From: Cymbomonas tetramitiformis
Lineage: Eukaryota > Chlorophyta > Pyramimonadophyceae > Pyramimonadales > Pyramimonadaceae
Reading direction: 5' to 3'
Assembly: GCA_001247695.2 (NCBI GenBank)
Contig: LGRX02028690.1
Coordinates: 1-64,000, forward strand
DNA length: 64,000 bases
Shown: in pieces, positions 8,797 through 53,421 of the stretch
Layout of the letters: every line of letters starts with the position of its first letter
Numbering within the stretch: position 1 is the first letter of the stretch
The notes under the pieces: model-generated
Seen by the model: only the letters and a program-made list of their open reading frames with translations
Told to the model about the DNA's origin: nothing
Database searches by the model: none
Position numbers and translations under genes: made by a program

Positions 8797-9579
8797 TTAA
8801 GTGCAGCGATGCACAAACCATGTCGAAACCGTTTTACGACATCCGCTACATAACTTTTGGGATTGATAAGATCTTGATGGGCTTTTTAGCTTCATATAGT
8901 TTTGGATACTCGTCTTCTGCGATCGTATGCAAAGCGCCGTTTCACATCGTTTCGTATCGTGATATTCTTTGATATCGTATTTGATTCTTTTACTCACCTC
9001 TCCGCAAAATCCTGATCGTGCGTCCTTGAGAATACGCGTTAAGGCGGTGACGTCGGCGATCGCCGAATGAGCGTTAGGTGCCTCGTGACCAAACAAATAT
9101 TTGTATACCGTGGTCTGTTTATGATCCGACAGGTGAGGTAAGGCTGATCGAAGCAATTTTAACGTATCTATAACAAAGCAGCGCTTGACAACTACCGGAC
9201 GTGAAATACAAAGCTTAGAGAAGTGTCGCAGTAGAATCGGAACATCAAAACGATGACAGTTGTGACCGACCAAGGTGATGGTAGCGTCCTCAGGTTGACC
9301 GAGTACGGTATGTTGTAACCAATCACATATCAAAGGACCGACAACGGACCATGAGGAGCTCTTACTGAGAGCGATGTTCGTTAATCCGGTCAGTCGTGCA
9401 ACATGATAAGGGATTGGTAGGATCGGTGGTTTCACTAAGCTGTCAAAAGTTTGTCCCGTTTCCAATACGACGATCGCTATCGATATGATGTCAGTGGTAT
9501 TGACGTTTAGTCCTGTCGTTTCCAAATCGAATACGAGCGTAAAGGCTCGCGAGCAGCCTTTATCCTTTGTTGGTGGCAT
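8797..9579 (-). CDS. DEDDh 3'-5' exonuclease (DnaQ-like)
   Basis: 260 codons. Exo I is at about residues 18-22 (FDLET, the D-x-E pair). Exo II is near 103-112 (GHNCHRFDVPIL, with N, F and the second catalytic D). Exo III is near 170-176 (H-x4-D in NAHSAIAD). The histidine places it in the DEDDh branch of the DnaQ fold, which removes nucleotides from 3' ends using two metals. It may proofread for a separate polymerase, process recombination ends or degrade RNA. The C-terminus adds a C-x2-C ... H-x-C cluster (about 243-259) that could bind zinc. Single gene, convergent with the 8464 gene. Confidence 0.85.
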   Translation of the reverse strand: MPPTKDKGCSRAFTLVFDLETTGLNVNTTDIISIAIVVLETGQTFDSLVKPPILPIPYHVARLTGLTNIALSKSSSWSVVGPLICDWLQHTVLGQPEDATITLVGHNCHRFDVPILLRHFSKLCISRPVVVKRCFVIDTLKLLRSALPHLSDHKQTTVYKYLFGHEAPNAHSAIADVTALTRILKDARSGFCGEVSKRIKYDIKEYHDTKRCETALCIRSQKTSIQNYMKLKSPSRSYQSQKLCSGCRKTVSTWFVHRCT

Positions 9580-16139: not shown

Positions 16140-17770
16140 CTAATTAATAAGAACGCGCGCGTTTTTTTGCTTCTTTATTGTGCTGAGATCGACCTACTCA
16201 TGTATGATGTTAATATTTTTCGCAAATTTTGATTGTCGACCTTGTAAATCTGCCGTGTATCAAACGAGATTTTTTGAGTGAAAAAAACGCGCGCGTTTTT
16301 TTTACATTGAAAAAAAACCGCGCGCGTTTTTTTGCTTTTTTATTTTGCTGAGGTTGACCTACCTACTCGTGTATGATGTTAACATTTTTTCGAAAATGTT
16401 GATTGTCGACTATGTACATTTGCCTTGTATCAAACAAACAATATTGAGTAAAAAAAACGCGCGCGTTTTTTTTTACATTGAAAAAAATCGCGCGCGTTTT
16501 TTTGCTTTTTTATTTTGCTGAGGTTAACCTACCTACTCACGTATGATGTTAATATTTTTCGCAAATTTTGATTGTCGACCTTGTAAATTTGCCTTGTATC
16601 AAACGAAATTTTTTGAGTGAAAAAAACGCGCGCGTTTTTTTTTACATTGAAAAAAAACCGCGCGCGTTTTTTTGCTTTTTTATTTTACCCAAGTCGACCT
16701 ACCTACTTATGTATGATGTTAATATTCTTTGGAAATTTTGATTGTCCATCTTGTAAATTTGCCTTGTATCAGATGAATAAAACTTGAGTTGAAAAAAACG
16801 CGCGCGTTTTTTTTTACATTGAAAAAAACCCGCGCGCGTTTTTTTACTTTTTTATTTTACACTGGTTGAACTACTTACTCATGTATGATGTTAATATTTT
16901 TCGGAAATTTGATTGTCGACCTTGTAAAATTGCCTTGTATTAATCGAAAATTTTTGAGTCAAAAAAAACGCGCGCGTTTTTTTTTCAACGTAAAAAAAAA
17001 CCGCGCGCGTTTTTTTGCTTTTCTATTTTACCGAGGCCAACCTACCTACTCATGTATCATGTTAATATTTTTCGGAAATTTTGATTGTCGACCTTGTAAA
17101 TTTGCCTTGTATCAATCGAAAAATGTTGAGTGAAAAAAAACGCGCGCGTTTTTTTTTACGTTGAAAAAAAATTGCGCGCGTTTTTTTGCTTTTCTATTTT
17201 ACCGAGGCCGACCTACCTACTCATGTATGATGTTAATATTTTTCCGAAATTTTGATTGTCGACCTTGTAAATTTGCCTTGTATCAATCGAAAAATTTTGA
17301 GTTAAAAAAACGCGCGCGTTTTTTTTTACGTTGAAAAAAAACCGCGCGCGTTTTTTTGCTTTTCTATTTTACCGAGGCCAACCTACTTACTCATGTATGA
17401 TGTTAATATTTTTTGAAAATTTTTATTGTCGACCTTGTAAATTTGTTTTGTATCAAACGAAAATTTTTGAGTTGGAAAAAACGCGCGCGTTTTTTTTTAC
17501 ATTGAAAAAAAACCGCGCGCGTTTTTTTGCTTTTCTATTTTACCGAGGTCGACCTACCTACTCATGTATGATAATAATATTTTTTGGAAATTTTTATTGT
17601 CGACCTTGTAAATTCGCCTTGTATCAAACGAAAAATTTTGTGTTGAAAAAAACGCGCGCGTTTTTTCTTCTTCCTATATTGATCTAGTTACTCGTGTGTG
17701 GTCTTAATGTTTTTTAAAAAAAGTTAATATGTCGTATCCTTGCAAAATTTGAAAGGTTAAAAAAACGCGC
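16140..17770. repeat. array of ~170-bp repeats with paired CG palindromes (candidate origin/hr)
   Basis: About nine tandem units with a period of about 170-173 bp. Each has a pair of short palindromes of the form A6-CGCGCGCG-T6, about 30 bp apart, separated from the next pair by a conserved AT-rich spacer. The spacer carries TACCTACTCATGTATGATG, then GATTGTCGACC and CCTTGTATCAA. Units differ by scattered point changes; the first and last are degenerate. Flanking DNA (15909-16139 and 17771-18110) is AT-rich and gene-free. Palindrome-bearing arrays of this sort act as origins and enhancers in other large DNA viruses (hr elements in baculoviruses). The role here is inferred. Open frames across it are by-products of the repeat. 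Confidence 0.75.
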
Positions 17771-18121: not shown

Positions 18122-18340
18122 AAATATACAATGTTTTTTAAATATGCAATCGTTCTCGTTAACAGAGCTCAGTCTTCTGTCGCATATTACAAGAGATACC
18201 AATTTGTTATAAATCTGTTCTGCGTAAGCTACAACTTGATATATATATACACACAAGTGTTTTTTGTGCATCGTGTATTACAACTTAGCAAGAAATTTAG
18301 AAATCTGCGCTTAAATCGTAATATTTTAAAGCCCGACATC

Positions 18341-18832
18341 ATGGTACAAAAAAAACGATTTAAGGGGTGCGTGTACGCTAATCCGCCTGAAGATTGTGGA
18401 ATAAATAATTTTATGGACATAAGCAAAAAAGAGTTGAGGGCGATGAAATTAATCGGCCTTCCGCTGAAAGTTGAGCATACCGGTCCTGATCGTGGAACCA
18501 TCGTTGACCAGCATACCGATGATGACACAGGATATACTACGGTGACATTTGAAATATTTGACGATTACGCCGGTGATGCGCTTTCGCATATGATCACCGA
18601 AGGACGTCTGCGAGATCTCAGTCTGTGTCACAATCTATACGCAAATCCCGAAACTTCTTTTGACGAATGGGCAAAAGAGCCTGTGGAAGTAAGTTTATGT
18701 TTGGAGGGAGCTCGTCCTGGAACGCACATTTGCAGTGTAGAATGCGCGAAACGCGGAGCATACGAGAAACCCACATATCTGGCGCGGGTAAGCGCGCCCA
18801 ACCTGAGCAAACTTTCATGCGTGTTCACATAA
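18341..18832 (+). CDS. assemblin-like capsid maturation protease
   Basis: 163 codons from the ATG at 18341; the frame is open back to 18131, but the upstream part is hydrophobic and unlike the family. The layout follows herpesvirus assemblin (peptidase S21): candidate catalytic His46 after a GLPLKVEH strand, Ser94 in LRDLSLC, then the EVSLC-x4-ARPGT block that matches the family's HVALC-x-x-RRxGT segment. The third triad position (His in herpesviruses) is Glu116 here, as in Ser-His-Glu HK97-type prohead proteases. It would cleave the scaffold during capsid maturation in the nucleus. A GTAAGC splice donor at 18788, on a codon boundary, can link residues 1-149 in frame to the scaffold gene; unspliced, it ends at 18832. 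Confidence 0.75.
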   Translation: MVQKKRFKGCVYANPPEDCGINNFMDISKKELRAMKLIGLPLKVEHTGPDRGTIVDQHTDDDTGYTTVTFEIFDDYAGDALSHMITEGRLRDLSLCHNLYANPETSFDEWAKEPVEVSLCLEGARPGTHICSVECAKRGAYEKPTYLARVSAPNLSKLSCVFT

Positions 18833-18921
18833 TGAGTATAAATACCTGCGCGAATTGATGGTCACTAAGCGTGCGCTGACGACGACTAACTCTATACAGA
18901 AATTTACGTGTTTTCTTGCAG
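18788..18921 (+). other. candidate intron joining protease to scaffold
   Basis: 134 nt with donor GTAAGC directly after codon 149 of the protease, and acceptor TTTTCTTGCAG ending at 18921. Both exons are in phase 0, so splicing fuses protease and scaffold in frame, five codons upstream of the scaffold's own ATG. The intron also contains the TATAAATA box of the scaffold gene and the stop codon of the unspliced protease. Confidence 0.6.
18837..18844 (+). promoter_or_regulatory. TATA box of scaffold gene, inside the candidate intron
   Basis: TATAAATA, 94 bp before the scaffold ATG (18931) and just after the protease stop codon. It would give a scaffold-only transcript. Confidence 0.5.
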
Positions 18922-18930
18922 ATTATTCGT

Positions 18931-19917
18931 ATGAGTTCGTCTCAGATGGAATCTGTGACAGAGCCTCAATCCGTACCGCAGCAAGCGGCCACGGCACCTG
19001 CGGAAATAGCAAACAAAGAAACTTCTGATCGAGCACGCGATTCTCAAGGGCGATTTGTACCGTTGGCAGTACAACCGACTAATCCCAACGTCGAGAATGC
19101 AAATCAAATCGAGCCTAATATGGCCATCGCAACTGCTGATACAAAAAATCAGGATAGTAAATCTTCTTCAAATTTCCTTTCCAACATCGCGGATCGTGTT
19201 GAAAAGCTGGCCAACAGTCTAACTCCGGAAGTCTCGGGAGAGCTAGTAAACACTTTTGAAGAGATCGTTAAGGCTCACGTGGACGTTCATAAGCTTTTAA
19301 ATATCGCCAACAACGACACCAAAGAGCTGCGATCAAAGTGTAAAACTTTGGAAGAAGATAACGAGAACATGCGCGCAGAACGTAAGGCGGAATTCGGAAA
19401 AATGGCGAGCCAGATTGCAGACGCTCTGAGCGATATATACATGCAGTACAATGGTTCTCCGATGGAACAATCTTGCAAGGACGAGCTTAAAATGGAATTG
19501 GACAAGAACCCTAAGATGGCAAAGACCTTGCAAGGTCTGCCTATGGCTACGGTTGCTATGAGCGCGCAACGTCAAATGGCGGAAATGGGATCACGCGTAC
19601 AATCCGCGCGCGTAGAAACGGCTGTGCGTAACGAGTCGTCCCTTACACAGAAGTTGAGGGATTATCAAATGGAGCTGTCTACTCTTCAAAACGCAGGAGC
19701 AACCCCTTCTATGTCTCAATCGGAAATAATGAAACCATCGTCCGTAGAGCCTATAGCCGTATCGGCATCGGAAAAAAAATACGGCGCGTCATATAAAATG
19801 TTACCACCGGCGCTCCGGGATTGTATTTCAAAGTACGACTCCTCCTGCGGATCCGGGAGACTCAATCCCGATGATTATACTAATGAAAACTTGGTAAAGC
19901 GTCCGCGTGTCGCGTAA
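18931..19917 (+). CDS. capsid scaffold (assembly) protein
   Basis: 329 codons from the ATG at 18931. The N-terminal 90 residues are S/Q/P/A-rich and disordered. Residues about 90-160 form a coiled coil; a helical Q/A/M-rich section follows, and the C-terminus is short and basic (VKRPRVA), a possible nuclear localisation signal. Position directly after an assemblin-like protease, coiled-coil content and co-terminal arrangement match herpesvirus scaffold genes (UL26/UL26.5 type), which form the internal core around which the procapsid assembles. No sequence motif alone proves this; the call depends on context. Confidence 0.65.
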   Translation: MSSSQMESVTEPQSVPQQAATAPAEIANKETSDRARDSQGRFVPLAVQPTNPNVENANQIEPNMAIATADTKNQDSKSSSNFLSNIADRVEKLANSLTPEVSGELVNTFEEIVKAHVDVHKLLNIANNDTKELRSKCKTLEEDNENMRAERKAEFGKMASQIADALSDIYMQYNGSPMEQSCKDELKMELDKNPKMAKTLQGLPMATVAMSAQRQMAEMGSRVQSARVETAVRNESSLTQKLRDYQMELSTLQNAGATPSMSQSEIMKPSSVEPIAVSASEKKYGASYKMLPPALRDCISKYDSSCGSGRLNPDDYTNENLVKRPRVA

Positions 19918-20046
19918 GTGTACGATGCAACATTTGCGCTGAAATTTTTACGACAGACGATTATGACCAATATGTCACTGTAAAGCTATGTAAGATTTTG
20001 ACATGTCCGTTCAAGCTTAAAAAGCTGTAGTAAAATAACGCTCATC

Positions 20047-22054: not shown

Positions 22055-22762
22055 ATGTCTTATCGATTGTGCTCAATGAAAAGAAATAATACTTTTCGCA
22101 AATGTCTAGCGTATTTCTTTCCAGTGTACAGCAAGACGCAGACCAAAGAGACTTTGGAAAAGCAAATATGCATACACGAGGCAGAAATCAGATCGATGGA
22201 GTCGCAATTAAAAGCTTTAGACGTAGCGATAAAGACATGCGTAGCCACAGAAAATCGTACTAGCGCATACATGAAGCTAGTGAAACGCAAAAGCGTCGAA
22301 AAAAAACTCGCGCGTATCCGCTCTTTATGCGACGTATGCAAAAATACGTTAGAGAGTATGCAGCAGAGCGATGAGATGTGCGTAACGATGGAAGTGTTGG
22401 ATACCGCTAACGTGTTTGTCAAAAGCGCCATATGCAACACCAACAACAATCTCAAAACCATCGACAACATATCCGACACTTATCACGAAATACAACAGCA
22501 AGCCCAGGAGGTGCACGACGCGATCGAGTCTACAGCCGATACCGGTATGAGCTACGACGATTTGGAGGACGAATTGGATGCGCTCTTTTCGTCTAATACC
22601 CCGCGTCTATTGCCGCCTTCGCATAGAGCCATCAGCAAAGAAGAGCCTGTAGTGTCGGAACCGGACGATCAGTATTTGAACGATGATATCGACGATACAA
22701 TATTTCCAACGGTTCCATCTACCGCTACCACGTACGAAGTTTTGTCCGACTTAAAACAGTAA
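22055..22762 (+). CDS. ESCRT-III protein of the Snf7/CHMP4 type
   Basis: 235 codons from the first ATG (22055). Residues about 28-110 form the two long basic helices of the ESCRT-III core, with the family rhythm of a start in TKETLEKQI, a KALDVAIK stretch and a KRKSVEKKLARI stretch. They are followed by the acidic C-terminal half with regular helices and the diagnostic YDDLEDELDALF at about 172-183, matching the Snf7 pattern D-x-L-x-x-E-L-D-x-L. The tail is acidic and proline-containing, as in family members that end in an autoinhibitory or MIT-binding segment. ESCRT-III filaments constrict and cut membrane necks, so a viral copy could drive budding or nuclear envelope passage. Divergent from the 629-residue gene. 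Confidence 0.75.
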   Translation: MSYRLCSMKRNNTFRKCLAYFFPVYSKTQTKETLEKQICIHEAEIRSMESQLKALDVAIKTCVATENRTSAYMKLVKRKSVEKKLARIRSLCDVCKNTLESMQQSDEMCVTMEVLDTANVFVKSAICNTNNNLKTIDNISDTYHEIQQQAQEVHDAIESTADTGMSYDDLEDELDALFSSNTPRLLPPSHRAISKEEPVVSEPDDQYLNDDIDDTIFPTVPSTATTYEVLSDLKQ

Positions 22763-32855: not shown

Positions 32856-33470
32856 ATGTCTTTCGATGTGGCGTCCATGGAAAGTCGACAGAATTTAAAA
32901 GCAATAGACGTCCGTAATGATCACCAAACATCAGACCTAATTCGTGAAAGTACATTCAAAAATTGTAGAATCGGGACTGTTGCTGACCCAGATAGTAACA
33001 CGTGTAGGATTGTGCCTCATCAAATAACCAGCAATTTTACCAAGTTAAAAAAACGCACCAAAATATATCTGCAAGAAGACAGATCACGAAAAGATCTTTC
33101 TGAAGATCCTTTTACGAACAATTACGCTTTTACGATTTCGATGAACACAGACGAACTCAGGCGAACTTTTGACGAGTTCATACGCGAAATCGCAAATACC
33201 GAATTCGTGACACATCAAATTTTGGCCACTGACGCGGCAAAAGGTTGTTCGGCGTGTACGTTTATAAGGAACATCGACGACGATTTGCACGAGAATGACT
33301 CGCGCGATACTCGAATCAGAATGCTAGATTTCTTTCAACGTCGATCGGATTTACCTCTACCGTGGCAGCGTTTCGCCTCACAGTACGTGCTCGACATCGC
33401 GAATAACATACAACATAGATTTGGGGATGAATTGAAAAAAAAATTCATACTTTTTTTGTGCATCATATGA
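32856..33470 (+). CDS. SF2 helicase, N-terminal part (frame 1)
   Basis: 204 codons from ATG. The chain leads directly into helicase motif I of the next frame: residues 160-200 contain LPLPWQRFASQYV, resembling the Q-motif-like entry of viral D6/D11 helicases. It ends 12 bases after the next frame opens. The overlap lies on T_TTT_TTG (33452-33458) in the correct phase for a -1 shift. With the next ORF it makes one protein of about 1430 residues. Confidence 0.6.
   Translation: MSFDVASMESRQNLKAIDVRNDHQTSDLIRESTFKNCRIGTVADPDSNTCRIVPHQITSNFTKLKKRTKIYLQEDRSRKDLSEDPFTNNYAFTISMNTDELRRTFDEFIREIANTEFVTHQILATDAAKGCSACTFIRNIDDDLHENDSRDTRIRMLDFFQRRSDLPLPWQRFASQYVLDIANNIQHRFGDELKKKFILFLCII
33452..33458 (+). 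other. candidate -1 frameshift heptamer
   Basis: T TTT TTG, of the X-XXY-YYZ slippery form and in zero-frame phase. Slipping back one base enters the helicase frame at its first codon (GTG at 33458). An A9 run just upstream (33435-33443) is a second slippery spot. I see no strong downstream hairpin, only a short CATCATATGATG palindrome, so a homopolymer error remains possible. Confidence 0.4.
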
Positions 33471-36400
33471 TGGGAAGCGGTAAATCAGACGTCGTTTTCA
33501 ACATACTTCGATTGATGTGTTCCAACAGCAAGGCTTATCATGGACATCGCGTTTTCATTATGTCGGAGAAGGATCAGGTAGATTTTTTGAGTACTTTTGA
33601 GACAATGATCAAATTACGTTCCACCGGTAATTTCAATTCTAATAACGCCAAATATCTAACCGATAAAAACGAGTACAAGCAACTAAGCGTGGGATCGGAT
33701 CCCGCTTTTATGGTCGAAAAAAGTTACGCGCGTGTGACCATGTCTACAAAACCGGATGAAGTAAAGGAGGTTTTTGATAAATTTTATGATCACGTCAACG
33801 ATAAAACCAAAGATCGCAAAGCAAAAAACGAACAACGTTATGAGACTATTGTTTTTGTTTTTGATGAGGCGCACATGTTTACCGAAGATGATGATAAGAT
33901 GAAACATTTAAACGATTTCATCGATAAACTTAGATTGTTGGACAGACCTTTAAACGTTGTGTTCGTGTTTCTTTCCGGCACTTTGTTGAGTGAAGCGGAG
34001 TCTTGTAAAAAGTGGAAGGCGCTCATCGAACGTATGACAAAATTTCAGGCATTGAGTACCACCTTTTCGGTATCCTGTCTGAACGATCTGCCGACCACTC
34101 TTCGACCGGTATATCAAATTAAAAAGTTGACGACGCCGACCCAAGTAGAGGATTTAACAATCTCTCGGGTGGAGAAATGCTTACAAAAACTGAAATATGT
34201 GATGGAGTGCATAATGAGAAGTCACGAGGGAAATGCAAACAAAAAATATGTTTTGTTTTTACCTACGATGCAAGACGACACAAATAAATGGTTCGATCCC
34301 TTGAGTAGTGACGCGATACGAAAATACGATGTGTACACAAAAATCAAGAGCATCGCATCAGACTTAAATCGAATGTCGCAAACTGAGAAGCTAAATTTTG
34401 AATACGAGCTCTTATTGGAAGGTACACAGGGCAGTAAAAAACTTATGCTCGATCTTGATAAGCGAATACAAAGCATCATCGATGGTCAAGGAACCAATCC
34501 AAAACAGATAGTCAACTTTGGCATAGCAAAGGCAGACGATCCGGAATATAACGATGTTTTGCTACGATCGTTTGGTCGAATGAAGGATATAGAGTCCGAC
34601 GTTAATGTCGATCGACCCGAAGAAAATCTCATGCGCATACAAATGTTAATTACCACAAAGTGCACTACGGGTGCCGATTTTGTCGGTGTCTCCGACGTGT
34701 ATTTTGTCGAACCTTCTCCAGACAGAGATGAATTCGAGCAGAATATGTACAGATCGATTCGAATGTGTAGTCACGCACTTCCTGATACAAAAGAGGACGT
34801 TCGGGTGTACACCTTGGACTTTAATCCGGATGAATTATACTCGACCATGAATGCCATAACGCGTAACGAAGATTTTAAATTTCTTATGGAACAATGTATC
34901 GATGCTTATGTGGATGACAGCGGCACGATAAAATCATTATACAGAGTGACCGGTGCCGCGCCCACGACCTTTGGTAAGACTTTGAAAGCGTACATCTGTA
35001 ATGACAAGGAGGATGAATATGTCAAAAAATTGCAGGACAGGCGTATACTTCAAATTCAGGGAGACACGGATCGATATTCGCCGCAATTCATAATCGACAA
35101 CGAAGATGACTTGAGCCATTTTTTGAATTACACGCTCATACCTTCTAAGTCGAATATAGAATTTGTGAGAGAGTACGACAATTGCAATGATTTACTGCAA
35201 AAGATGTTATGCGTGATGAAATTTTATTATCGAGATCAGGACAGAGATCGGGAGATGACGGAAAATCACATCGGTGATTACAATTTTGATGTCGCCCGTG
35301 AGATATCGATAAACGAATTTAAAGATCGCATGCAAAATTTTATGCAGCACTTTAAAATAAAGGAAGCTGAATTGTCTTCGGAAATGGATAATACAAAGGT
35401 GTTTAACATCATATTGGAATTAATGTTAGAGACGCTCAAACAACTGACAGATGCGCAAAAAATTAAACTGAATGATGCAGATTTTAACGACTCGCATTAT
35501 TTGGAGAGTCATCGCATTCTCAATCTGATCGAATTCCATGTCAGTAAATTGATCAGAGGTAGATACGCTTACGTGATAGAAAATGAAGATAGTATTCAAA
35601 ATATAGCTACGTACGGAATATTGTTACCTGAATCGACTGGGGACTTCAATCCTTCATACGAAAGTAAAAATATTTATATACAAAACATCGATTATACGCC
35701 AGAAATACGTGACAGTGATAACCCCATATCGAATTACATCAAAAAGGTGCGTCAAGGAAACGCAAATAACATATACTTACATCTGGCCAGAAAAATATAT
35801 AGGACATTAACCGGAACACGGAAAAACATACTGAATATATACATCTCAAAGCCTACTCTGACGACCGTTTGGCAGTATAGCGTTCTTTTTGATGTGTCGG
35901 CGCTGCGAAATTATTGTCAAAAAAATACGAGCATCGTGCATAAATTGATGGATGTTACCATAGTGACTCCTTCGGATACATGCGAAGAGGTGTTTCGTGA
36001 AAAGGTTATGCGGCATACCTTCGATTACAGTGACAATTTTCCGTCAGATCAAGTATTGCTATTACAAATGTTAGAGCGATGTAAGCCGTGGCTCAATATG
36101 GTTAAGTACTTAAGCGCTGATCAATCCAAAAAATACGTGAGTAATCACTTCAAAACAGAAAATTTGATGCAAATACCCGATGCAAAACCGACTGAAACGC
36201 AACTTATTGAAACTGTCAATAAAAGCAAACAAAAATATTTACCTGCTTGTCTGCAAGAATATGATAACACGGATAGCAAGGAATGGTATACCAATAAAAC
36301 AAGCTTAGACACCCTAAAATTTGCAGACGAGTTTGTTCGATTAGTACTGCGCGATTGGGATACGATTTTCGCAAATTTTGAGGAGACTTTAAACGGCGTT

Positions 36401-37162
36401 GAGGACATCAATGAGATTCTTAATTTTTGCCAAAAGTATGTAAGTGAAAATAACTCCGCGGATCACGATTATGCTTCCTTGCTCAACGATTTTTTGACTC
36501 AAGAGGAAAAAGATATCAAAAACATAAAAAGAGCACAATATCCAAAATATTATATCAACTGCTTGTCCTGCGTGTACACCTACGAAAGTATAGTACGGAA
36601 AGTCATAAGTCATCTAAAACAGCTTCATAAAGTGTTGAGACGACGCATATTTAATATTGACGGGATCCTTATGCTTATAAAACAAAAGCAACATTTCATA
36701 AATGCACTGCAGGAAGGAATTAATGAATTTCCAGATGATAATTTTTGGGTAATATTTATACAAGATTTACAATCGCAATCAGACATCTTCGACTTTATCA
36801 GAAATTTGACAGATAATGCTCAGAAACCAACCAAACTTGAAAATGACGTGCAGATGAATACGCAAGAGTACTCCACTACACAGGCGATCACAAATACTCT
36901 TCTCACTTATATGAAGTCAAGTAAGACGACACCAGATTTCAAGGAAGCTTCCAATAATGATATTTATGATTACAACAAATCTCATCGCGCTGTAATAGAT
37001 CATATCAAGAGTAACTTGGGAAGTTCGAGATCTTACCTGAGCGTGAATTGTAACAAAAAAATGGAATGCTCTCAGGCTATTCAAAAGTTGCTAGACTTAG
37101 TTTTCACATCTTATCACAATGGTACAAATACAAGTTTTAAAAAAAGGAGATTGCAATCCTAA
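33458..37162 (+). CDS. D6/D11-like viral SF2 helicase
   Basis: 1234 codons, opening at GTG at the frame overlap. Residues 6-10 are motif I (GSGKS), 136-139 motif II (DEAH), 173-175 motif III (SGT) and about 403-423 motif V (TGADFVGVSDV). Residues 432-439 (RSIRMCSH) are motif VI in the form typical of poxvirus D6/NPH-I-type helicases. The 800 residues after the helicase core are helical and unrecognised. Such proteins act in early transcription initiation or termination in poxviruses and relatives. No ATG precedes the core in this frame, which fits dependence on the upstream ORF. Confidence 0.8.
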   Translation: MHHMMGSGKSDVVFNILRLMCSNSKAYHGHRVFIMSEKDQVDFLSTFETMIKLRSTGNFNSNNAKYLTDKNEYKQLSVGSDPAFMVEKSYARVTMSTKPDEVKEVFDKFYDHVNDKTKDRKAKNEQRYETIVFVFDEAHMFTEDDDKMKHLNDFIDKLRLLDRPLNVVFVFLSGTLLSEAESCKKWKALIERMTKFQALSTTFSVSCLNDLPTTLRPVYQIKKLTTPTQVEDLTISRVEKCLQKLKYVMECIMRSHEGNANKKYVLFLPTMQDDTNKWFDPLSSDAIRKYDVYTKIKSIASDLNRMSQTEKLNFEYELLLEGTQGSKKLMLDLDKRIQSIIDGQGTNPKQIVNFGIAKADDPEYNDVLLRSFGRMKDIESDVNVDRPEENLMRIQMLITTKCTTGADFVGVSDVYFVEPSPDRDEFEQNMYRSIRMCSHALPDTKEDVRVYTLDFNPDELYSTMNAITRNEDFKFLMEQCIDAYVDDSGTIKSLYRVTGAAPTTFGKTLKAYICNDKEDEYVKKLQDRRILQIQGDTDRYSPQFIIDNEDDLSHFLNYTLIPSKSNIEFVREYDNCNDLLQKMLCVMKFYYRDQDRDREMTENHIGDYNFDVAREISINEFKDRMQNFMQHFKIKEAELSSEMDNTKVFNIILELMLETLKQLTDAQKIKLNDADFNDSHYLESHRILNLIEFHVSKLIRGRYAYVIENEDSIQNIATYGILLPESTGDFNPSYESKNIYIQNIDYTPEIRDSDNPISNYIKKVRQGNANNIYLHLARKIYRTLTGTRKNILNIYISKPTLTTVWQYSVLFDVSALRNYCQKNTSIVHKLMDVTIVTPSDTCEEVFREKVMRHTFDYSDNFPSDQVLLLQMLERCKPWLNMVKYLSADQSKKYVSNHFKTENLMQIPDAKPTETQLIETVNKSKQKYLPACLQEYDNTDSKEWYTNKTSLDTLKFADEFVRLVLRDWDTIFANFEETLNGVEDINEILNFCQKYVSENNSADHDYASLLNDFLTQEEKDIKNIKRAQYPKYYINCLSCVYTYESIVRKVISHLKQLHKVLRRRIFNIDGILMLIKQKQHFINALQEGINEFPDDNFWVIFIQDLQSQSDIFDFIRNLTDNAQKPTKLENDVQMNTQEYSTTQAITNTLLTYMKSSKTTPDFKEASNNDIYDYNKSHRAVIDHIKSNLGSSRSYLSVNCNKKMECSQAIQKLLDLVFTSYHNGTNTSFKKRRLQS

Positions 37163-49632: not shown

Positions 49633-52113
49633 TCACTCACAGCCGAAGACCACACTTCTCCATTCGTCGTAGGAGACGGCGCCAGAACCCATCAGGAGAG
49701 CGGGACACCATCCTCTCCAGTGCCTCAAAGAGCCAACCCTGCGGGTAGCTTTGCCATCGAAGCTCACGGCCGAGTATGTCACCCCCGCATCACTCACCGC
49801 CGATCCGAACGCTCCTGACACCCGAGCCAACCCCTGCTGTGTCACCGGCCGGTGTTTCGCAGCCGCGCGGTTCTGAATCAGCAGTATGCTCACGTCGAAC
49901 TTAGCACCGGTTGAGCGATCCTTAAAACCCAAGGCACTCTGCGGCGCAAGAAAAGCGAACTTCTTCTTCTTCAGAATACAAACCAGCTCGACGCCCTCTC
50001 TTTCATCCCAGCGTTCCCAATACGGGCACACCAGCACAACACGGCACGGTTTACGAGTAGAACGAGCAGAAAAGAGAGCGTGATCAATACACTTTCGGAT
50101 ATGAGCAAGGGTATAAATCGGGTTTCCCAACGCACAAAGGTGCCAAAGAATACGATAAGAGTTTTCGACTGCGCCAAAGCAAGTGTCCTCAGAATATGGA
50201 GTGCAGAAAACTGCGCTGTTAACATTCACGTCAAGAGGTGAAGCGAAAAGTTCATCGCGCAAAGAAAAGCAGAATCGGAGCGCATCCTGTTTCGTATAAG
50301 GAGTAATCCAATAGTCTTGTGTGACTAACCTCGCCCACGCTAGTAGTCTCCGCACTGCTGAGTAAAGGTGAGTCATTACAGAAACTTTCGGGTGGCCCAT
50401 CGCAGTAGAGTATGCGTCTAGCCTCTTTAAAAGAAACACAAATCTGTCCCAAAGTACCTGAACAACCAAGCCAGTAGAGCCACAAATTGCAACGAAAAAA
50501 GTGTCCTCAGTCACGTTTTCAACCACAGCGAAGTGAGCTCCATAAACAGTGCATTGCCACGGCAAAAGTTTGCGCAGCGCAGCCATTGACACCGTCTCGA
50601 AGTGGCGAAGCTGCCGTAAATAATCGGAAGTACTAGTCAGTAAAAAATCAGAAGTACCCACAGAGTGCCGGGGAGTGTCCTTAAGACTGCGGTTGAGGGC
50701 TGCAAACTTCCCATCGAGCTCAGTGGTTCGAAAGCACACGTGCCCATTACGTCGAGGCAAGTCAGGATCCAGTCTGTCACAGCGGCACTCAGCATTGTCA
50801 ACGCAAAGAGACACAGAGGAAAGATTACAAAATATGTCACGCAGCTTCTGCTTTGCAGTTCTTACCACCCTGGTGCGTCGTCGTACAAAAGATCTCGTTG
50901 CGCCCTCTGGATACTTCGTGTCCACACACTGAAGGAGAAACTCTCGCATCACTGCTGTGCCCAAACTGTCAGGAAAAGAGACCTTACAGACATATGTCGC
51001 TCTAATCACAAAGTCGTGTACTCGATTTGCCACTGCTGACAGAGACGTTCTGATTTTAGAAAGCTGCTGTTTCTCAACTACCGACGCCGCTGCCTGCCAC
51101 AAGCGCACAATTCTGTCTAGAGTGTACTTCGGTACTCGCTTCCAGGCCTTCGCAGGTCTCCGCACCAGCTGTTTGACCTCTCGCTGCGCCCATAAATCGG
51201 ACTCACTGATCTCTATGCGCGTAAATCTCAGTCTGGCATTGTCTCGCTTAAGCAGAGGGATAAGCTCGCGCAGTGAACTACGCAAACCGTCTGACTCGCC
51301 CCCCACAACCTCCACGCGCGACCGCCCATACTTCAACTTCAGGCAGGTCCAGTCAGTAAAGTTCCACGACCCTGCAGACCACTGTAAGTCCCACGAAGCC
51401 TCACAAACTGTCTCGCCTTTCGTCAGTCGTCGAAGTGCAAGGTCCAGCGCGCCACCGTTATAGCCCTGTACCTCAGCGCTTCCATACACCCTCCGCTTCG
51501 CAGCTGTCTCTGCGCCCCGTGCTCTGTCGCGCATGCCGCGTCGACCCCCTCGATGTCGTGACTGTCGTGCCAGCTGTCGCGTCCTCCGATAGCGCTCACG
51601 ACCCGCTGTCACCCTCCGCCGCCAAACTCCAGCTGTGTTCAAAGTGTCGGCTGGTCGCTGAGTTCGTCTAATAATCAGCTTCTCGTCAGCGTCACAGTCG
51701 CTTTTCCCACCATAGGTCTTCAGCGGCAGCATGAAAAACTTGTGCACACCGCGAGCCCGCAGACCCCCATACAGTCGTCTCCCTCCCCGCATAGAAGGGT
51801 CCATGGCTGTCTTCAAATGTTTTAGCATCCTCTCCCGCGGGCCTGACCAAAACTTCCCCACGTAAGTCCGTCGGGATCCCACCGACGCCAACACATATGT
51901 CCCGTACCGAACATCACCTGACAACCACCTCCTTAGCTCCCCCGCTCCCAAAACATTCCACCACGGCAAGAATCTCCGCAGCCACCACCTCGGCTGCATA
52001 CCAGCCCATTCCAAAAAAATCAGTGACCCAAACATTGACAGCCGGACCGCTAGATCCCACTGCTCCCCCCCATCCTCCGTGCACCTGGCGACGACCTCTT
52101 CCAGCACCTCCAT
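49633..52113 (-). CDS. GIY-YIG endonuclease with PCIF1-like methyltransferase domain
   Basis: 826 codons from the ATG at 52113; TTG at 52128 would add five. A complete GIY-YIG nuclease lies at about 68-163: G-T-Y at 71-73, Y-V-G at 84-86, then Arg93, His99, Glu144 and Asn159. After a long basic linker comes a C-x-C (443-445) with GHV (457-459), a pattern I associate with protist retroelement linkers. Residues about 620-720 resemble the methylase domain of PCIF1, the cap-adenosine N6-methyltransferase: FASPLD at 623-628, then FG-x-V, the catalytic NPPF position as NPIY at 664-667, and a CPYW strand. The altered NPPF suggests reduced or changed activity. A reverse transcriptase, expected after the linker, is missing. 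Confidence 0.65.
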   Translation of the reverse strand: MEVLEEVVARCTEDGGEQWDLAVRLSMFGSLIFLEWAGMQPRWWLRRFLPWWNVLGAGELRRWLSGDVRYGTYVLASVGSRRTYVGKFWSGPRERMLKHLKTAMDPSMRGGRRLYGGLRARGVHKFFMLPLKTYGGKSDCDADEKLIIRRTQRPADTLNTAGVWRRRVTAGRERYRRTRQLARQSRHRGGRRGMRDRARGAETAAKRRVYGSAEVQGYNGGALDLALRRLTKGETVCEASWDLQWSAGSWNFTDWTCLKLKYGRSRVEVVGGESDGLRSSLRELIPLLKRDNARLRFTRIEISESDLWAQREVKQLVRRPAKAWKRVPKYTLDRIVRLWQAAASVVEKQQLSKIRTSLSAVANRVHDFVIRATYVCKVSFPDSLGTAVMREFLLQCVDTKYPEGATRSFVRRRTRVVRTAKQKLRDIFCNLSSVSLCVDNAECRCDRLDPDLPRRNGHVCFRTTELDGKFAALNRSLKDTPRHSVGTSDFLLTSTSDYLRQLRHFETVSMAALRKLLPWQCTVYGAHFAVVENVTEDTFFVAICGSTGLVVQVLWDRFVFLLKRLDAYSTAMGHPKVSVMTHLYSAVRRLLAWARLVTQDYWITPYTKQDALRFCFSLRDELFASPLDVNVNSAVFCTPYSEDTCFGAVENSYRILWHLCALGNPIYTLAHIRKCIDHALFSARSTRKPCRVVLVCPYWERWDEREGVELVCILKKKKFAFLAPQSALGFKDRSTGAKFDVSILLIQNRAAAKHRPVTQQGLARVSGAFGSAVSDAGVTYSAVSFDGKATRRVGSLRHWRGWCPALLMGSGAVSYDEWRSVVFGCE

Positions 52114-52170
52114 CACAAGGTATAACAAGTTCTTTACCCTGTAGAGCCGCCGCCGCCAGTTGCCACCCTG

Positions 52171-53421
52171 TCAGAGTTTTCGAAGATCGAAGTGCCCAGC
52201 ATTGTGGGCATCAGTCGCAGCAACCAGCACCTCCATTTTTGTCATTTCGTGTGCTGTCTCGGGTTCAATCACGCCGTGTTTGACGAGCTGCAAAGTAAGA
52301 GTCCCCCATTTAGGCTTAGTCCTGTAATTCTTAGACATATAGGCCGCATCGACCGGCACAACACCCCTCGCGGGACAGGGTGTCTTCGGTGGTGCTGACG
52401 GTTTTTGCACGGGCGTAGGAATCGGGAGAGCTGGAGGTCTCGCTGCTGGCCTTCCGAACGCGGCCGCCATCCCTGCAGCCTGGGCTGCTGTTTCGTCGAG
52501 GCCTCTGTTTAAAGCATCCGTGTATGCTTCCTCGCGGGCGCTGAGCATTGCCCTGAACGCCGCCCCCTTCGGATCTGGACTTGTGCCTGTGCTCGCACCC
52601 CTCTGGCCGCTGCCACTCTGAGTTGCTTGGGCGCGGGACGCACCCTTCTCCCTCTTGTGTCGCTGGCGGCTCCTACGGCTCCCATCGCTCGTGCCCGTGG
52701 TTTCAGACGACTCGCTGTCTGAGCTGGAGCTAGATCTCTTCTTTTTCTTCTTCGAGGACTTCTTCCGCTTCTTGTCCTTTTTCTTCTTTCGACCGTCATC
52801 GCTGCTTCCATCCAGCTTGTCGATCTCGAAGTGGACAGCCTTCCCCTTCGCAACTGTCTCACGAGCGCCCGCCGTCGCTGCACCCGCCAGTACTCCACCC
52901 AGTTTCTGCAGGTCGGTGTCCCCCCTCATTGCTGCGATCTCCCTCGCCAAACGCTCTCCGTACTCTTTGTCGCGAACTGCCTCGGCTGTCGCTGCGTTTG
53001 ACTGGACCAATCGGGTCTCCATTGCCATAATTGTGCCACGTAACTCCACGATTTGTGCCTCGAGTGCTGCCGTTCTTAATTTCTCTTCTTCGTAGTCACG
53101 TTTGAACCTCGACACGTATGGCCGGTTGGTCATTGGGTCTATAGGAGGACCATTGTTTTGCTGGAATCCTGCCGCATTCTGCTGCGGAATCGGCGGCTGA
53201 GGAAGGGGAAGCTGATACTGCATTCCTCCTGTTGGTGCTGGCTGAGTTTGGGTTGGGGTGGTGTATGAATTGTAGGCAGAGAAGCTGCTCGGAGTGTACT
53301 GCCCAATCACGTGCTGCGGCTGTTGAATTGGAGGCGCCGCCGCCGCCATAGGTGTAGTTTGCTGGGGCACTCCCTGCGGTGTCACTGGCGTCCCTGGAAC
53401 TGGTTGTGGTGGTTGAGACAT
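52171..53421 (-). CDS. ORF1 of the element, Gag-like/RNA-binding type
   Basis: 416 codons from ATG, 57 bp upstream of ORF2 on the same strand. The first 90 residues are P/Q-rich; a coiled coil spans about 105-165, then a lysine- and serine-rich region (about 210-260) likely to bind nucleic acid, an A/P-rich section and a small C-terminal domain. Composition and position suggest an element nucleocapsid-like protein. No zinc knuckle. Confidence 0.5.
   Translation of the reverse strand: MSQPPQPVPGTPVTPQGVPQQTTPMAAAAPPIQQPQHVIGQYTPSSFSAYNSYTTPTQTQPAPTGGMQYQLPLPQPPIPQQNAAGFQQNNGPPIDPMTNRPYVSRFKRDYEEEKLRTAALEAQIVELRGTIMAMETRLVQSNAATAEAVRDKEYGERLAREIAAMRGDTDLQKLGGVLAGAATAGARETVAKGKAVHFEIDKLDGSSDDGRKKKKDKKRKKSSKKKKKRSSSSSDSESSETTGTSDGSRRSRQRHKREKGASRAQATQSGSGQRGASTGTSPDPKGAAFRAMLSAREEAYTDALNRGLDETAAQAAGMAAAFGRPAARPPALPIPTPVQKPSAPPKTPCPARGVVPVDAAYMSKNYRTKPKWGTLTLQLVKHGVIEPETAHEMTKMEVLVAATDAHNAGHFDLRKL

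Follow-up and report, generated by a model that had tools for sequence, protein, structure and literature searches.

A protease-like open reading frame and a scaffold-like one lie side by side on the forward strand, and the question they raise is whether they are two genes or the exons of one. A preliminary description of this DNA proposed that the two can be fused by splicing across an intron that carries the scaffold promoter. We followed up this proposal in the window, by which we mean the whole 64-kb stretch that was analysed, part of a contig of 137,786 bases.

The window is most likely, judging from its sequence, a mirusvirus-like (CHeCME-type) element integrated in the green alga Cymbomonas tetramitiformis. 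Its GC content per kilobase is 31-50% over 2-49 kb versus 46-66% outside, that is, an AT-rich element lies beside GC-richer DNA. All named relatives of the scaffold and the protease are hypothetical proteins of C. tetramitiformis (six of the eight relatives from a first search, plus P0011, P0012 and P0014). The CHeCME elements of Cymbomonas have been described as putative relatives of mirusviruses (PMC10675990); among open-licence PMC papers, a single one uses CHeCME as a whole word.

Anatomy of the protease-scaffold locus

The anatomy of the locus (Table 1) is real. The DNA of the window does not hold a continuous protease-scaffold frame: a TAA at 18830-18832 interrupts it, the protease ORF without splicing has 163 aa and stops at 18832, and the scaffold ORF, which is coiled-coil-like by weak family matches, is likewise closed. 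We rejected an upstream ATG (18131) as the protease start because P0003, P0005, P0006, P0007 and P0010-P0014 begin near the position of 18341 (the models of P0002 and P0004 begin further in).

Table 1. Positions in the window of the features discussed in the text
Feature	Position	Strand	Remark
Two overlapping TATATATA boxes, -101 and -99 of protease ATG	18240..18249	+	candidate long-transcript promoter
Exon 1, capsid maturation protease-like domain, 149 codons	18341..18787	+	invariant H46, S94; E116
Proximal alternative donor GAA/GTAAGT, phase 0	18689..18694	+	within coding sequence (Val-Ser)
99-nt (33-aa) segment, VSLCxxGxRxGTHIxxVE	18689..18787	+	kept by distal donor, removed by proximal
Candidate intron, 134 nt, GTAAGC ... 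CTGAC / ACTAAC ... TTTTCTTGCAG	18788..18921	+	
Unspliced read-through, protease + 14 residues, then TAA (18830-18832)	18788..18832	+	possible protease-only form
TATAAATA box in intron, 94 nt before scaffold ATG	18837..18844	+	
Exon 2, three codons + scaffold ORF (ATG 18931, 328 aa)	18922..19917	+	
V-S-A-S, candidate M-type maturation cleavage site	19759..19770	+	leaves 49-residue tail

By these sequence signs 18788-18921 would qualify as a U2-type spliceosomal intron, with a GT donor, an AG acceptor with pyrimidine tract, and a branch point. The donor (CGG/GTAAGC, the slash marking the exon boundary) lies directly 3' of codon 149 in the frame that starts at 18341, at a codon boundary as had been claimed, and the acceptor TTTTCTTGCAG ends at 18921, from where exon 2 runs in phase 0 with the scaffold ATG. 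The phases of donor and acceptor do match, both being phase 0; the distance from acceptor to scaffold ATG, given previously as five codons, is three (ATT ATT CGT). A branch-point-like ACTAAC stands at 18885-18890, its branch A 32 nt from the intron end, and a CTGAC at 18876-18880, its A 42 nt from that end. The intron has 45% GC and is thus not AT-rich, and as an introner repeat it has no further copy in the window, where matches of 12-16 bases were all that we found. Splicing 18788^18921 is predicted to yield a fusion of 480 aa.

As for the 3' end, TGTAA (at 19979 and 19989, 3' of the scaffold) was tried as a poly(A) signal and discarded: the 150 nt downstream of a gene contain it in 9 of 27 cases and the 150 nt upstream in 8 of 27, with no enrichment.

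A fused relative fits the predicted spliced product

The fusion of the two frames that had been proposed finds its counterpart in P0005, a protein of 479 aa from a contig of 5,842 bases, which carries protease and scaffold in one chain with the same spacing. P0005 reads ...KEPVE-VSLCLQGARPGTHICSVECSNRNDEGKPTMLAR-IIKMSASQ..., and the window spliced 18788^18921 reads ...KEPVE-VSLCLEGARPGTHICSVECAKRGAYEKPTYLAR-IIRMSSSQ..., so that the two align without a gap over the junction (LAR/IIRMS versus LARIIKMS). The spacing from E to I is 33 aa in the window, in P0005 and in P0010 (CAQ-IVKMSAG). When all 23 in-frame, stop-free GT-AG pairs were compared, 18788^18921 gave the best fit to P0005 (score 368), followed by one at 351.

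An N-terminal protease is fused to the scaffold in the protein models of P0005 and P0010 and also in the more distant P0011 and P0012; in the window the fusion arises only after splicing. The scaffold start is visible as an internal Met-Ser in all seven nearer relatives with a protease (P0002-P0007 and P0010), and the models of P0008 and P0009 begin at this Met-Ser. Scans of viral contigs and genome contigs for this gene returned no confirmed relative. In P0005 the frame may run straight from protease into scaffold; a continuous frame there would confirm the fusion as a genuine product without refuting the intron. On this sequence evidence, we consider it highly probable that splicing fuses the two frames, which is our best reading of the locus.

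TATA boxes and the candidate intronic promoter

A TATA box had been reported within a 134-nt intron; the length is right, and TATAAATA does lie there. It is promoter-like in position, -94 being a distance found for many of the element's genes. The pattern TATA[AT]ATA stands between -150 and -40 of 15 of the 26 genes; the corresponding frequencies are 11 of 593 for internal ATGs and 2 of 26 for downstream regions (Fisher p versus genes 1e-16 and 1e-4, respectively), and 6.4% for random places. Patterns and distance range were picked after the upstream regions were inspected. Genes in this count are ORFs of at least 150 codons with little overlap, the protease being taken from 18341 and the scaffold left out. 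The looser TATA[AT]A[AT][AG] gives 15/26 genes, 21/593 internal ATGs, 4/26 downstream regions and 8.2% of random places. For the strict TATAAATA the enrichment is small (4/26 genes, 9/593 internal ATGs, 2/26 downstream regions, 1.9% of random places).

A single ATG, at 18858, lies between the intronic TATAAATA and the scaffold ATG. Transcription starting near 18862-18875 would make the scaffold ATG the first, and a start before 18858 would add one ATG. Position -3 of the scaffold ATG is not a purine. In Marek's disease virus, the distance from a putative TATA box to a transcription start site is 24 bp, and from that site to the UL26.5 start 133 nt (PMC10284419).

Alternatively, the intronic TATAAATA could be a chance match, and the scaffold alone, if made, could come about by other means, for example, proteolysis of the fusion. 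Both strands of 2.6-48.9 kb together contain 16 copies of the box, and the low strict count in genes beside those in downstream regions and internal ATGs, together with the post hoc choice of TATA[AT]ATA and its distance range, favors such a reading; the agreement of the -94 position with the element's other genes and the GC content of the intron weigh against it. We give it appreciable, though less than even, weight. Fusion by splicing combined with an intronic promoter is, on the sequence, a likely arrangement.

Over 2600-48900, the TATATATA and TATAAATA forms of the TATA box might mark different gene classes.

Intron-like motifs by chance and the two-gene alternative

We scanned 2-49 kb (~47 kb), on both strands and in all phases, for GTAAG[TC] paired with a pyrimidine-rich CAG over 50-400 nt, requiring that the pair rejoin across a stop two frames, each with a minimum of 80 codons. 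The scan returned two candidates, both at this locus and with one common acceptor. With permuted donor and acceptor motifs as mock pairs, at least one candidate appeared in 26 of 179 runs and at least two in 3 of 179 (mean 0.16). Motif and frame alone are therefore only moderately unlikely by chance and no more than suggestive; the main argument is that the product matches a fused homologue exactly.

These numbers bear on the possibility that protease (163 aa) and scaffold are two separate genes without splicing, the scaffold having its own promoter and the splice motifs being fortuitous or left over in an integrated element that is decaying. That both ORFs are closed, that the scaffold has a TATA box to itself, that mock motifs yield at least one candidate in the 26 runs just given and that elements of this kind are mostly silent would all agree with it. 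On the other hand, the spliced product fits the fused relative without a gap, and an I-x-x is conserved just upstream of the scaffold ATG, which would be useless if it were never translated. We judge two separate genes to be quite unlikely.

The putative protease and its candidate cleavage site

The assignment of the protease rests on motifs, one sub-threshold profile match and low-confidence structural models. His46 and Ser94 are invariant and in the right order for a Ser-His-His triad, whose third position would be Glu116, not His. We infer that E116 is placed at the third catalytic position of herpesvirus proteases and that the 33-aa segment which follows it occupies the position of their oxyanion-hole loop.

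Pfam gave no S21 or S78 match to the protease and PHROGs gave no match, and sequence searches of the PDB found no protease of the herpesvirus maturational or prohead kind. The HK97 prohead protease profile (TIGR01543) reached E=0.18 with the window ORF, sub-threshold at 11.9 bits versus a cut-off of 59; among the five proteins scanned, the window ORF alone matched it, the four relatives giving no match. Two AlphaFold models are of low confidence (pLDDT 52 and 45), and neither had a Foldseek match in the PDB at E<=0.001. Among the best 50 matches of the first model, a KSHV protease appears at ranks 34 and 42 (E 0.29 and 0.40); among the matches listed for the second there is no viral protease. 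Structural similarity to T4 gp21 and to herpesvirus proteases is weak in these low-confidence models.

Of 14 protein models, that of the window among them, 11 carry V-x-A-S at a distance of 48-70 residues from the C-terminus; the three that lack it (P0009, P0013 and P0014) are models that skip that stretch. The motif of the window and its relatives resembles the predicted herpesvirus M-site VQA-S (PMC4498786). We also considered IxxM-S-[AS] at the scaffold start as an R-site; its residue pattern is variable.

A second donor within the protease

A second donor, at 18689, had been missed in the earlier reading; it is in phase, and its GTAAGT is a full six-base donor match. The join equivalent to its use, KEP[VI]E/[IV][IV][KR]MS, is seen in the models of five of the 11 protease-bearing relatives (P0002, P0003, P0004, P0006 and P0007), and the other six (P0005 and P0010-P0014) retain VSLC, with all 33 aa or a part that includes their beginning. 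Among NCBI-named protease models the proximal join occurs in five of eight, including all five of the nearer clade, and the farther ones (P0011, P0012 and P0014) keep the segment. Twelve of its first 20 residues are invariant in all six sequences compared (window, P0005, P0010, P0011, P0012 and P0014, with P0011 and P0014 near-copies of each other). Judging by its sequence, this segment clearly codes for protein.

P0007 and P0010 are identical for 114 residues upstream of the junction and for 195 downstream of it, and of the two only P0010 has the 33 aa; they are thus seemingly two models of one locus, for which two pipelines chose differently. The NCBI models are apparently BRAKER2 predictions with RNA reads as evidence (PMC10675990), and since the same source calls most viral elements silent, they are no proof of the proximal donor. 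Val-Ser is encoded as GTAAGT in 2 and as GTAAGC in 5 of its 54 occurrences in the window, this locus's two pairs included, so that a chance donor at 18689 would be unremarkable by itself.

The two in-phase donors with their common acceptor might compete as a switch in capsid maturation, between a complete protease and a fusion without the oxyanion loop. Intron retention would then give free protease, the intron would also hold the promoter for scaffold alone, and one segment of 134-233 nt would set the ratio of active protease to dead-protease scaffold to scaffold. We regard such a switch as unlikely. That the proximal donor is the main one, 18689^18921 joining E116 to the scaffold in a fusion whose protease is truncated and probably inactive, so that only unspliced RNA or splicing at 18788 supplies an active one, is distinctly improbable: its six-base match, its phase and the equivalent join in the NCBI-named models of the nearer clade speak for it, but six of 11 models retain the segment, the start of that segment is conserved, the fit to P0005 is worse (262 versus 368, a comparison that is partly circular because P0005 keeps the segment), P0007 and P0010 look like conflicting models of one locus, and the NCBI models are predictions from largely silent elements.

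Other features of the element

The 35 ORFs scanned with Pfam (of 58 with at least 100 aa in the 64 kb) gave no match to an HK97-fold major capsid protein (MCP) or to heliorhodopsin. A TREX1/ExoIII-like 3' exonuclease is encoded at 8797-9579 on the reverse strand (PF00929, E=5.8e-16), and a TREX1-like exonuclease is on the list of mirusvirus functions (PMC10132985). At 22055-22762 (+), an ORF of 235 aa matches Snf7/ESCRT-III (PF03357, E=8.1e-12) and has no sequence match in the PDB at 0.001; it is possibly an ESCRT-III-like protein with a role in membrane scission in a herpes-like, presumably nuclear virus.

Upstream of the protease, a 171-base unit with CGCGCGCG stretches bounded by A and T runs is repeated in tandem some nine times over 16154-17666, which could be an origin or an enhancer-like region. 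A helicase-like ORF of 1231 aa (33467-37162, +) has sub-threshold DEAD and ResIII matches. At the element's right edge, in GC-richer DNA, two ORFs (49633-53421, -), one with a stretch that looks like GIY-YIG by eye, are perhaps from a retroelement or host DNA. Scans against viral contigs found no confirmed relative of the helicase-like ORF or of the other window ORFs scanned.

A proposed capsid-assembly gene with a promoter in its intron

We propose, as the probable explanation of the whole, that the locus is a single gene for capsid assembly, belonging to a mirusvirus-like virus that most likely sits integrated in Cymbomonas. A long transcript would, very probably, start from a TATA box 5' of 18341 and be spliced 18788^18921 to encode the 480-aa protease-scaffold fusion. 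A second transcript, starting ~25-30 nt 3' of the intronic TATAAATA, would encode scaffold alone (328 aa), since the donor would be missing from that RNA and the scaffold ATG would be its first. Unspliced long RNA might give the protease alone with its 14-residue tail. By analogy with herpesviruses, the fusion would assemble together with the scaffold beneath the capsid shell, and cleavage of V-S-A/S near the scaffold C-terminus by the protease would release the scaffold. Use of the competing donor at 18689 could yield a fusion that lacks the oxyanion-loop segment and probably has no protease activity.

The five relatives whose models follow the proximal donor, not 18788, argue against this explanation, as does a report on the Cymbomonas elements, according to which heliorhodopsin genes and those next to them seem to lack introns and the majority of the alga's viral elements are transcriptionally silent (PMC10675990). 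In its favor, GT-AG introns are enriched in the virion morphogenesis genes of mirusviruses, and WCTAAC and CTGAC are the branch consensus in two mirusvirus orders (PMC12768974); the window, which most likely belongs to the same broad kind of virus, shows ACTAAC and CTGAC in its candidate intron. That survey annotated MCP, terminase, portal, jelly-roll and triplex genes, and its main text does not contain the words protease, scaffold or promoter (PMC12768974).

The closest known parallel would be UL26/UL26.5 of herpesviruses, where a protease-scaffold fusion and scaffold alone, the latter from an internal promoter, share a common 3' end (PMC4498786, PMC12474303, PMC10284419); here, this pair of products is predicted. 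The herpesvirus frame is continuous, whereas that of the window is interrupted by stops, and joining its parts would require removal of a spliceosomal intron with an internal TATA box. For HSV-1 UL26/UL26.5, a GC-AG intron of low efficiency has been reported (PMC6597130). By analogy, the locus may work like the UL26/UL26.5 pair without the layout of that gene, the continuous frame being absent. The prohead proteases of phages (HK97 gp4, T4 gp21) act with scaffolds, whereas in the window the scaffold would instead be fused to the protease; phages are not known to have spliceosomal splicing. Among open-licence PMC papers, we found none that describes a maturation protease being spliced to its scaffold.

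If this explanation is true, an algal relative of herpesviruses would obtain its pair of protease-scaffold and scaffold-only products through splicing and an intronic promoter, in contrast to the nested promoters over one frame of herpesviruses. The use of introns in mirusvirus virion genes would extend to the maturation protease, which is not among the genes annotated in the intron survey (PMC12768974), and a single intron would control the stoichiometry of capsid assembly.
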